Assembly (NCBI GenBank): GCA_018401755.1
Contig: JAGYKJ010000005.1
Coordinates: 1-64,000, forward strand
Source: Litorivicinus sp.
Lineage (GTDB): Bacteria; Pseudomonadota; Gammaproteobacteria; Pseudomonadales; Litorivicinaceae
Reading direction: 5' to 3'
Length of the DNA: 64,000 nt
Shown: positions 49,514 through 53,800 of the stretch, piece after piece
Layout of the letters: each line of letters begins with the position of its first letter
Position numbering within the stretch: the stretch's first letter is position 1
Notes under the pieces: model-generated
Databases searched by the model: none
What the model was told of the DNA's origin: nothing
Seen by the model: the letters and a program-made list of their open reading frames with translations, nothing else
Position numbers and translations under genes: made by a program

Positions 49514-50464
49514 TTAAAAAATATCGGGATCCAGTCCAGCTGCGACCAACAATACCGCCATGTGCGAAGGTATCGGCGCGAGGACCGTCACCGCATGCCC
49601 GGAGGCAGCAATCAGGCCAATCGATCGCGCATGAAGACACAATGTCGTGACCTGTCGGGACTTCCATGCGGCCTGGCTCGCTTCAGACTGATACTTTAAA
49701 TCTGCCAACACTGGATGTTTCTGGAAAGCACAGTGTACGCGAATCTGGTGGGTTCGACCGGTCACAGGCTCCGCTTCAAGCAAGGTTGCATCTGGCAAGC
49801 TTGCCAATACCTTAAATCGGGTCGTCGAGGGCTTTCCATCTTGCGCCACCTCAACCCGTCGCTCACCACTGCGCTCGTATTTCGCCAACGGTGCATTCAT
49901 TTCGGTGACATACGATGGCCACCGCCCCTCAACAATGACAAGATAGCGTTTCTGCAGCTCAGCGTGCTGCTCGCGGAGTGATTTGTGTAACCGCCGGAGC
50001 GCCGATGGGCGACGCGCAATCACCAGACACCCAGAGGTTTCCCGATCGAGGCGGTGCACCAGCTCCAAGAAACGCTCATCCGGGCGCGCCAATCGTAACT
50101 GCTCGATTAATCCCGTCGCCAACCCAGAGCCGCCATGGACAGCAAGACCGCTGGGTTTGTTCAGAACAAACACATCCTCATCCTCGTACAACAGCGCATC
50201 ACGCAATTGCAGCTGCATCCGGGAGTTGCTGCGCGGCTGTGCAGGACGATCAAGCACCACAGGAGGAATTCGTACGATATCGCCTGCCTGCAGACGACTC
50301 TCGGGCTTGCAGCGACCTTTGTTGATGCGCACCTCTCCGGTTCGGATCATCCGATAAATCCGACTTTTGGGAACACCCTTCAACAATGCGGATAAAAAAT
50401 TATCCAGTCGTTGGCCTTCGCGGCTGTCATCTATGGTGAGCCACTGCACCTGCAATGCGTCCAT
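49514..50464 (-). CDS. rluC: 23S rRNA pseudouridine synthase RluC
   Basis: Makes pseudouridines 955, 2504 and 2580 of 23S rRNA. An S4 RNA-binding domain (about 18-65) precedes the catalytic domain with HRLDRETSG (Asp140) and GRTHQIRVH. Length 316 residues. The ATG at 50464 has GAGGG upstream; the open frame continues into the rne leader region but that start is not credible. Divergent from rne, as in E. coli and Pseudomonas. Confidence 0.94.
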   Translation of the reverse strand: MDALQVQWLTIDDSREGQRLDNFLSALLKGVPKSRIYRMIRTGEVRINKGRCKPESRLQAGDIVRIPPVVLDRPAQPRSNSRMQLQLRDALLYEDEDVFVLNKPSGLAVHGGSGLATGLIEQLRLARPDERFLELVHRLDRETSGCLVIARRPSALRRLHKSLREQHAELQKRYLVIVEGRWPSYVTEMNAPLAKYERSGERRVEVAQDGKPSTTRFKVLASLPDATLLEAEPVTGRTHQIRVHCAFQKHPVLADLKYQSEASQAAWKSRQVTTLCLHARSIGLIAASGHAVTVLAPIPSHMAVLLVAAGLDPDIF

Positions 50465-50805
50465 CCGGACCCTCTTCTGTGTTGCATTGCCGAAACAGCA
50501 ATCCGCTGGTATGCTCCAGACCATCTCGGGTTGAGTCAAGACTCCCCGCGACAAGACACCTTCTGCGCGGTTCGCAGAAGATGAAAGTATGATCCCGCCC
50601 GATCTCGGCGGGCCAGCGAAGCTGGGACAAGCACATTGATTGTAAGCGGAAGTTCCGCTTGAGAAGAAATTCAGGGCTCCCGAAGTGACAGTCGGTTGAG
50701 CCTGCCAAAACGTGTGATTTGTCGCCTTGGTTTTCCGACCGAGGCCTCGGTTAGTGTATCTAGCCCTCCGGATCGTGGCATCTGACCATTGAAGGTTGCC
50801 ACTAC
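50465..50805 (+). promoter_or_regulatory. Structured leader region of rne
   Basis: The 341-base gap between the divergent rluC and rne holds no gene that I can support but several hairpins on the rne strand. They are an 8-bp stem CTTCTGCG/CGCAGAAG (50560-50580), CCCGCC/GGCGGG (50594-50612), CCAGC-GAA-GCTGG (50613-50625), AAGCGGAA/TTCCGCTT (50644-50660) and the palindrome ACCGAGGCCTCGGT (50738-50751). In E. coli the rne 5' leader is about as long and lets RNase E control its own mRNA. A similar role is inferred. Confidence 0.55.
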
Positions 50806-53800
50806 ATGAAGCGTATATTAATTAATGCATTACAGGCGGAAGAGATCCGCGTTGCGATGGTCGACGGACAGCGTCTGTATGACCTCGATATTGAGTCCTC
50901 CGACCGCGAGCAGAAAAAAGGGAATATCTACCGGGCACGTATCTCCCGGATCGAACCCAGTCTTGAAGCCGCATTTATCGATTTTGGTTCAGAGCGGCAT
51001 GGCTTTTTGCCGCTGAAAGAAATCTCCCCCGAATATTTCTATGACGCCCCCAAAGAAAATGAACGTATTCGGATCGACAAGGTCTTAAAAGAAGGCCAAG
51101 AACTGATTATTCAAGTCGAAAAGGAAGAGCGTGGAACAAAGGGCGCCGCCCTCACGACTTACATTTCCTTAGCGGGCCGCTACATGGTTCTGATGCCGAA
51201 TAATCCAGATGCAGGTGGGATTTCGCGCCGTATTGAAGGTGAGGATCGCTCAGAACTCAGAGAAAAACTGCAATCGCTTAAGATCACTCCGGGTGCTGGC
51301 ATCATCATTCGAACAGCCGGCGTCGGACGATCATTGGAAGAATTGCAATGGGATCTGGATTATTTAGACACCACCTGGCAAGCCATCCGTAAGGGAGCGC
51401 TCAGTGGTGTCGCTCCATTCCTGATTTTCCAAGAATCCAACGTGATTGTTCGCGCGATTCGAGATCATCTGCGTTCCGATATCGGCGAGGTGCTGGTCGA
51501 CTCAGAAGAGATCTTTAAGAAGGCCCTTGATCTGATTCAGCAAGTCATGCCCTCCTTCGCGACCAAGTTAAAACACTATAACGATGAAACTCCTCTGTTT
51601 AATCGGTATCAGATTGAGGGGCAAATCGAGTCCGCTTTCCAACGGGAAGTGCGACTCCCATCCGGTGGCGCGATCGTGATTGATCCGACCGAAGCTCTGG
51701 TCTCCATCGATATCAACTCAGCCCGTGCCACCAAGGGGGTGATATTGAAGAGACTGCGCTACAGACCAACCTTGAGGCGGCTGATGAAATCGCGCGCCAA
51801 CTCAGATTGCGCGACATGGGCGGACTGGTTGTCATCGACTTTATCGACATGTCTGCCAACAAAAATCAGAAGGCGGTCGAAAACCGTCTGAAAGATGCCC
51901 TGAAATCTGATCGGGCCCGAGTCCAAATTGGACGTATTTCTCGATTTGGGCTTCTTGAAATGAGTCGCCAACGCATTCGTCCATCGCTTGGAGAAACCAG
52001 CGGTGTGGTCTGCCCACGGTGTCATGGCCAAGGGAGTATCCGTGATGTGCAGTCACTGTCACTGCAGATTTTGAGATTATTAGAAGACGAAGCCGTCAAA
52101 GATAAGACGGGTGAAGTGCGTGCCCAAGTGCCCGTCTCTGTCGCCACCTTCCTTCTGAATGAAAAACGCCAGCAAATCGAGTCGATTCAAGCACGCCATC
52201 GGGTACGAATCTTGATTCTCCCGAACCCGAACATGGAAACGCCAAATTACGATCTTCAGCGCCTTCGCGATGACGATCCGCAGGTTTCAACGCTGGAGCT
52301 GTCAATCGATATTCAATCACAGACTCCTGCCCCTGAACCTGAGGTGGTTCGGCAACGACAAGTGCAGGTGCGTGAGCAAGCATTGGTGACCGATATTCAA
52401 CCAAAGACTCCGGCACCTGTCCGCGCAGAGCCTGAACCCACGATTGCGGTTGCGCCCACGCCGTTGCAGGAGCGTGATGACACCCGTGCTGCAGTCGGAC
52501 GAAAGCCGCGACCCACGTCGGAACGACGCCGACGCGAACCCACCCGAAAAATCTCGATTCTATCGCGGATTATTGGACTCTTTACCGGACAACCGAGCGA
52601 TGTCAGCTCAGCCGATACGACAAAAGCATCTGCCGACATGCGTCAGGAGCGCGGTGAACGTGATGACCGCCGTGGTCGTCGCAGACGTCCCGGTGATGCT
52701 CGGCCCAATGCGCCGACGGTGGTTGCTGAGGAGGCCGTGACGCTTGATTCACTCCCGAAAGATCCAACCGCCTCAGAGTCCAACGAAGAACGTCCCGGCC
52801 GTCGCCGTCGCCGTCGTCGCAATCGGACCGGTCGTGACAACGACGCTGATCAGCCAATCACCTCGGTGGATGCGATCGATGAGGTTTCGGATATTGAAGT
52901 CGTCATGACTCCAGCAGTCGTGGACCCTGCGCAACAAGCCATGATTGACGCGCATCGGGAACCCTTAACGCCCCGTCCTAAGCGCGCTGAGCGATTTGCG
53001 CGCGGTGAATCGGCAATTGCTGACCAACAAGCAAAGCTCGAAGAACATAGCATGACCTCTGGAGAAGACACCTTAAACGATCAGCCAGTGCTCAATGAGG
53101 GCATGATCAGTGACGATAAGCCAAAGCGCTCCAGACGCAGTCGTCGTGGATCACGGCGGCGCAGTGAAGAGTCAGGCATTGTGGATCAAGCAAACAGCTT
53201 GACTGCGGGCGACGACTTGGATCGCGACGAGATCGAACCGACAGCGGTTGAAGCAACCACCCAGGCAGCGACAGGCCCATCAGTCGACGTGATCAGCGTA
53301 GCAGGATCACCCGAATCCCCTGAGGACGCACTGCTGGACCAGCCAGATATGCCACAGCGAACCGCAGAGGTTCTTGGCGCGCCCATTGGAGAGCCTACTC
53401 CAGCGAAACGTGCACGCCGTGGCCGTGCTCGCAAGCCTAAGGGGACCGATGACACCGCGTTGCAAGCGATATCGACACTGGATGCCAACGACGAAAGCTC
53501 GCCAGTGACCATTGCGATCGAGACACAGGCCGAGGTGACCGTCCCAACCGAAGACTCGCCGGTACAAACCACAGCCGCAGATCTCTCACCCGCTCCCGCG
53601 CGTCGGGGCCGTGGTCGAAAACCAAAGGCGACAGACGATGCGGATGCTCCGATGCAGCCGGACCTGGATCATGTCGCCCTTGTGGAGGGTGGTGGCTCAG
53701 CGCCAGAAATAGAAGCGGACTCCAGTGCGCCTGAGATGGTGGAGACACCCGATCAATCGACATCGATCGATGCTGATGACGAGGCAATTGCAGTTCCAGT

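Follow-up and report, generated by a model that had tools for sequence, protein, structure and literature searches.

A conserved, covarying RNA leader upstream of rne in the genus of the marine isolate HIMB30, a candidate for RNase E autoregulation

Introduction

The closest described systems are the leaders of the RNase E gene, rne. According to a review, autoregulation in Escherichia coli requires that RNase E bind a hairpin within the rne 5' UTR (PMC3997798), and a precedent for negative feedback by RNase E through the rne leader comes from Pseudomonas aeruginosa (PMC8545117). A sequence-only reading of the DNA studied here had regarded such an element as known mainly from enterics. That element is catalogued in Rfam as rne5 (RF00040), but the view was too narrow, since a second family, rne-II (RF01756), is listed for Pseudomonadales (PMC2864571) and reached its cut-off in one family of that order in our searches.

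We describe a leader directly upstream of rne in a window of 64,000 nt (the whole stretch analysed, from Litorivicinus sp., contig JAGYKJ010000005.1) and in its genus, the one holding gamma proteobacterium HIMB30 and sampled here with 22 genomes. HIMB30 falls in the marine clade OM252, for which the name 'Candidatus Halomarinus' has been proposed and which is sister to Litoricola (PMC8269220). The GC content of the window (54-55%) falls between the ranges published for OM252 (47-51%) and Litoricola (58-60%) in the same source. The genome comprises 2.19 Mb in 7 contigs and is 99% complete.

Results

Locus, promoter and extent of the leader

The intergenic gap between rluC and rne was exactly 50465-50805 (341 bases), with the rluC ATG at 50464 on the minus strand and the rne start at 50806.

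49514..50464, minus strand: rluC, the divergent neighbour; the best NCBIfam match is RluC with 333.6 bits, below that model's cut-off of 378, and an RluA-family model is above cut-off
50487..50515, plus strand: predicted rne promoter, TTGCCG (50487-50492), a 17-nt spacer and TG-extended TATGCT (50510-50515)
50806..51891, plus strand: 5' part of rne; the NCBIfam RNase E/G domain is above cut-off and the RNase E model is the best match

The promoter pattern TTGYCG-17-TATNCT was present in all 15 genus loci. A promoter consensus scan with a 9-of-12 threshold reported none, TTGCCG-17-TATGCT scoring below it. The rne transcript is predicted to start near 50522, and no intrinsic terminator was found on the plus strand of 50300-50900. 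Five stems had been proposed in the 341 bases before rne from the letters alone. Inverted repeats did match about five (50557-50583, 50594-50612, 50644-50660, 50738-50751 and 50775-50802) and the gap folded with a z of -3.50, but the consensus structure had ten helices and the first 57 or so bases (50465 to about 50521) were conserved promoter-like sequence, leaving about 285 bases as structured leader.

The reading frame of rne was broken at 51735-51739, where a G-rich stretch is 1 base shorter than in five aligned relatives, splitting the gene into 361 aa and a second frame. The rne gene is normally essential, so the break is likely a homopolymer sequencing error. One in-frame TAG was also seen within the rne match of another genus locus (L011, G004:C42). 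At G000:C2:16838-17776 lies another gene of RNase E/G type, with 37% identity to the N-terminal part of rne; it probably encodes RNase G.

Structure of the leader

The consensus features are given below; strand A (GGUYGAG) and strand B (CUCCC) are the two halves of a motif that occurs twice.

50524..50551, plus strand: hairpin H1 near the predicted 5' end; 5 of 11 pairs change on both sides
50529..50535 and 50542..50546, plus strand: motif copy 1 in H1, GGUUGAG and CUCCC; order A-B in 14 of 15 sequences
50557..50583, plus strand: hairpin H2, an inverted repeat; 1 of 4 pairs changes on both sides
50594..50612, plus strand: alternative local hairpin CCCGCC/GGCGGG; 89 of 90 cells paired, with 5 of the 6 pairs invariant and covariation absent
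50596..50611, plus strand: 5' strand of H3, the long-range helix closing a multibranch domain; 15 pairs, 98.2% of cells paired
50613..50625, plus strand: hairpin H4, CCAGC/GCUGG with a variable loop; 4 of 5 pairs invariant
50626..50723, plus strand: stem H5, 50626-50634 with 50712-50723, around two hairpins; consensus helices 5 and 6
50644..50660, plus strand: inner hairpin AAGCGGAA/UUCCGCUU of the consensus structure, of CAGGC/GCCUG type in relatives
50661..50672, plus strand: A/U-rich linker that the consensus leaves unpaired, a candidate site for cleavage by RNase E; RNWUU, the RNase E cleavage consensus (PMC5222698), matches in 15 of 15 sequences, being short and matching elsewhere in the leader too
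50672..50704, plus strand: hairpin with motif copy 2, CUCCC (50677-50681) and GGUUGAG (50694-50700); order B-A in 15 of 15; consensus helix 8
50724..50745, plus strand: hairpin GCCUUGGU/ACCGAGGC; 5 of 7 pairs change on both sides
50749..50765, plus strand: hairpin GGUUAG/CUAGCC; consensus helix 10, 1 of 7 pairs changes on both sides
50765..50780, plus strand: 3' strand of the long-range helix H3, placed by the consensus structure and column counts, with the invariant GAUCGUGGC
50775..50802, plus strand: ribosome-binding-site hairpin GUGGCA/UGCCAC around a Shine-Dalgarno-like AAGG (50792-50795); excludes the long-range helix

The apical part of H1 was nearly invariant and its lower stem covaried; only a few bases separate this first hairpin from the predicted start. 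Both-side changes were found in 4 of 9 pairs of the inner hairpin on alignment A5 and in 1 of 9 on A4. The long-range helix, which excludes the local hairpin, had none in its 15 pairs. At the 3' end, GAUCGUGGC is followed by the AAGG, GUUGCCAC and the rne start codon. GUGGC/GCCAC was paired and invariant in all 15 sequences, with 95% of cells paired in the inner stem and no covariation. The stretch GAUCGUGGCGAUC at 50770-50783, exact in 6 of 15 sequences, is near-palindromic (GAUCG-UGG-CGAUC), a further alternative pairing in this region.

Conservation and covariation

Of the 22 genus genomes examined, 15 had an rne locus with sequence upstream of it, and each of these carried the leader. The other seven genomes were without a full rne match; three had only a weaker homologue (37-39% identical), probably RNase G, and four had nothing. 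Of 314 alignment columns, 120 were invariant. Two alignments were used: A4 was made with MAFFT from sequence only and misplaces parts of L004 and of the window sequence, and A5 was fitted to a model and leans towards structure. On A4, 95.4% of cells were paired and 14 of 77 pairs changed on both sides, against 6.5 ± 1.7 in shuffles (0 of 500 reached 14) and 6-7 in slid structures; both-side changes occupied 29 cells, against 8.4 in shuffles and 6-9 in slid structures. On A5, 96.8% of cells were paired, with both-side changes in 17 of 77 pairs and 37 cells.

Shuffle statistics ignore relatedness, and events were therefore also counted by parsimony on a tree built from the first 795 bases of rne. 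Double substitutions that kept the pair numbered 21 on A5 when ties favoured pairs, 12 when they were neutral and 12 when they went against pairs; the corresponding counts on A4 were 16, 9 and 9, and slid-structure controls gave 0-6. One-sided changes with the pair kept numbered 49-55. Pair-breaking events were numerous as well (27-37 on A5, 41-53 on A4). Three hairpins contributed most of the covariation: H1, the inner one of CAGGC/GCCUG type, and GCCUUGGU/ACCGAGGC. The long-range helix changed on one side only, column pair 91/272 doing so five times with the pair kept each time. Conservation and covariation across relatives had been named beforehand as a test of the leader, and both were found: at all 15 loci, in 14 of 77 pairs on A4 and in 9-21 double substitutions on the tree. 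The leader on rne is conserved and covarying at every genus locus examined, and in the broad sense it is a structured rne leader, a conserved, covarying RNA structure directly upstream of the gene.

Folding energy

The 341-base gap folded at -130.3 kcal/mol, compared with -110.8 ± 5.6 for 100 dinucleotide shuffles, none of which was as low. For the predicted transcript part (50520-50805) z was -3.68, with 0 of 200 shuffles as low, and for the HIMB30 leader it was -6.34. When 250 bases upstream of rne were folded against 40 shuffles each (93 of 95 sequences folded; one genus leader omitted for Ns), z was below -2 in all 14 genus leaders folded (range -3.1 to -7.6), in 28 of 77 other gammaproteobacterial loci, in both sister-genus loci and in 11 of 93 controls taken from farther upstream. 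Fold energy by itself is a weak criterion, because the well-established E. coli rne leader has a z of only -0.66; covariation carries the case.

A motif present twice in permuted order

Strand A of the motif pairs with strand B across a two-base bulge. The order is A-B in H1 (14 of 15; L016 carries CUCCU) and B-A in the hairpin within H5 (15 of 15), so that the two copies resemble a single recognition element, employed a second time with its helix turned round. The copy-1 pattern matched 99 times in the 22 genomes, 14 of them at rne, with 105 matches for the reversed control; the copy-2 pattern matched 26 times, 15 of them at rne, with 21 for its control. Away from rne, neither pattern was commoner than chance by these controls. 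The strict twin motif was found at 0 of 78 loci from other lineages. A relaxed form (GGUNGAG) occurred at 5 of the 78, all named Pseudomonas, with gaps of 41-44 nt and, by eye, without a matching small hairpin; these were not accepted as further instances of the motif.

Distribution of the leader and of known families

A covariance model of 292 positions (R1), built from the 15 genus leaders, scored 202-338 bits at those 15. In 83 sources it gave 18 matches, which were the 15 source leaders (by construction) and three weak ones (8-9 bits) at genus loci, on the opposite strand, and there were no matches in 13 further loci. In the sister genus, with filters off, nothing convincing was found; the best match was a generic hairpin of 5.9 bits on the other strand. 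In 293 genomes of the order, searched with stricter filters, five non-genus matches appeared at E up to 0.1 (best 4.2e-4, 19.8 bits); these were taken as chance because no rne N-terminal match lay within 3.0-3.5 kb around any of them. Five additional weak matches (9-12 bits) away from the 15 leaders in the 22 genus genomes were likewise taken as chance. Among the loci and the 293 order genomes searched with R1, the leader thus appears so far to be confined to this genus. Among the literature matches listed (titles and starts of abstracts), no paper describes it.

None of 4227 Rfam families matched within the leader at gathering score, and at E up to 10 only two weak, unrelated matches, neither of them rne5, occurred in 50300-50950. 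The rne5 model, which gave 260.1 bits in the E. coli K-12 positive control, reached its cut-off of 180 bits in 0 of 22 genus genomes; three sub-threshold matches (10-13 bits) lay on contigs other than that of rne. This bears out the earlier suggestion that, relative to the enteric element, the leader is either divergent or independent. The rne-II model (cut-off 50 bits; positive controls 193.6 bits at L037 and 197.4 at L041) had no match in the 22 genus genomes at E up to 1. In the 293 order genomes it matched 13 at E up to 0.01; 12 reached the cut-off, all in one family, which by inference is Pseudomonadaceae because the two named matching loci are Pseudomonas.

Two side observations concern other loci. 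Five Pseudomonas loci (L043, L046, L061, L062 and L082) share a recurring hairpin-like CCGCUC..GAGCGG about 315-330 bases before rne, and L041 also carries it, just upstream of the start of its rne-II match. The two sister-genus loci (L116 and L117) carry a different structured rne leader, in which a Shine-Dalgarno-like AAGG lies in a hairpin loop and the stem sequence largely differs between the two species; it is possibly a fourth rne leader family.

Discussion

From its position and by analogy, RNase E autoregulation is the likeliest job of the leader. We consider it probable, with moderate confidence, that the roughly 285 nt with which the rne mRNA begins act as a cis-regulatory RNA in negative feedback by RNase E. 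The hairpin near the 5' end would shield the mRNA from 5'-end-dependent decay. Excess RNase E would bind the multibranch domain, where the twin GGUYGAG/CUCCC bulged hairpins are the likeliest contact, and would cut the unpaired A/U-rich linker beside the second of them; the cut would lead to decay of the mRNA and lower RNase E synthesis. Possibly the leader would also be allowed to close the ribosome-binding-site hairpin, lowering synthesis by that means too. We infer the binding at the twin hairpins, the cleavage of the linker and the contribution of ribosome-site closure. Overall, RNase E would limit its own synthesis, as in E. coli, by way of an RNA in which covariance models detect no resemblance to the E. 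coli leader.

Three other accounts of the leader were weighed against this. It may sense something else, such as a ribosomal protein, an RNA helicase or a metabolite, to set rne expression; the multibranch fold, the invariant apical and junction blocks and the 120 invariant columns are as in ligand- and protein-binding RNAs. We regard this as unlikely, given that the Rfam comparison produced no family at gathering score and only the two unrelated weak matches, and that the two rne leaders covered by the papers cited are tied to RNase E itself (PMC8545117, PMC3997798). A passive leader that merely stabilises the mRNA 5' end, with no role in feedback, would fit a first hairpin so close to the predicted start, but it needs no invariant apical blocks, no twin motif and no ribosome-binding-site hairpin conserved across 15 species, and is quite improbable. 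Control by a leader peptide or small ORF is scarcely credible and was rejected. Short frames are present, and a 20-codon TTG frame at the local hairpin recurs in most sequences, but not all: it is altered in length or lost in the window, L004, L011 and L016. No ATG frame is kept across the 15 sequences, and the variation tracks base pairing.

A bistable translational switch differs from these accounts: it may belong to the autoregulation model itself instead of competing with it. In one state, the long-range helix CGCCCGAUCUUGG/GAUCGUGGCG would occupy GUGGC and leave the ribosome-binding site open; in the other, the local CCCGCC/GGCGGG hairpin would free GUGGC to pair with GCCAC and close it, with binding of RNase E or another ligand choosing between them. 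The local hairpin, the long-range helix and the ribosome-binding-site hairpin are mutually exclusive in full, yet all are conserved (98.9%, 98.2% and, for GUGGC/GCCAC, 100% of cells paired). The local 3' strand GGCGGG is invariant at 5 of 6 columns though its long-range partner columns 268, 269, 271 and 272 vary; the local hairpin would account for this. In the local loop CGAUCUU, 4 of 7 columns are invariant and 13-14 of 15 sequences are alike at the other three, for which the long-range helix would account. The local 5' strand is invariant at 6 of 6 columns, and GUGGC and the paired region of GUUGCCAC are invariant except for one change at column 299. Each pairing accounts for an invariance that the others leave unexplained. 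In predicted ensembles, 6 of 15 species preferred the long-range helix and the other 9 (window included) preferred the local hairpin; forcing the first state cost 0 to 6.5 kcal/mol and the second, in full, 0.5 to 9.4, against minimum energies of about -100 to -123. These are model values, however, and the preferred state varies between species. In L013 the local hairpin and the long-range helix each have one broken pair, and the invariance may instead serve protein binding or tertiary contacts. Three exclusive conserved pairings, one of them over the ribosome-binding site, suggest a switch by their invariance, not by covariation. The local hairpin and GUGGC/GCCAC showed no covariation, with counts equal to those of the shuffles, and folds at the rne start as stable as in the genus (-9.5 to -14.3 kcal/mol) were common elsewhere (64 of 78 other loci at -8 or lower); the switch is therefore treated here as a hypothesis, possible if somewhat doubtful.

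If RNase E autoregulation through this leader is true, self-control of RNase E by a 5' leader would have arisen, or been rebuilt past recognition, at least three times in Gammaproteobacteria, in enterics, in the Pseudomonas family and in this genus. The three leaders may be separate inventions or one element diverged past recognition, and both are compatible with the data. In the fullest version, a third autoregulatory rne leader would have evolved independently; RNase E would read it through a bulged motif present in two permuted copies, and it would work as a bistable translation switch, with the long-range helix exchanged for the ribosome-binding-site hairpin, rather than by mRNA cleavage alone; we hold that combination to be doubtful. 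Unrelated leaders with the same job, when compared, would reveal what RNase E recognises in RNA, and the group is testable, including as it does the cultured marine isolates HIMB30 and LSUCC0096 (PMC8269220).

Among known systems, rne-II is like this leader in being a structured RNA immediately before rne, and both occur within one order. The sister-genus leaders occupy the same place with fold z values of -4.74 and -2.50, and in both the first hairpin has CUCCC/GGUAGAG strands in the order B then A, but neither gave a convincing R1 match. With rne5 the genus leader shares the form of a long structured rne 5' UTR and a hairpin at the very 5' end. A multibranch domain closed by a long-range helix, as in rne5, is predicted for it too, but that helix is kept by invariance and one-sided changes only and competes with a local hairpin. 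The hairpins and motifs are not the same as those of rne5, and whereas the translation start region of E. coli rne is reported to be unstructured (PMC8200214, citing Diwa et al. 2000), that of the genus can form a conserved hairpin.
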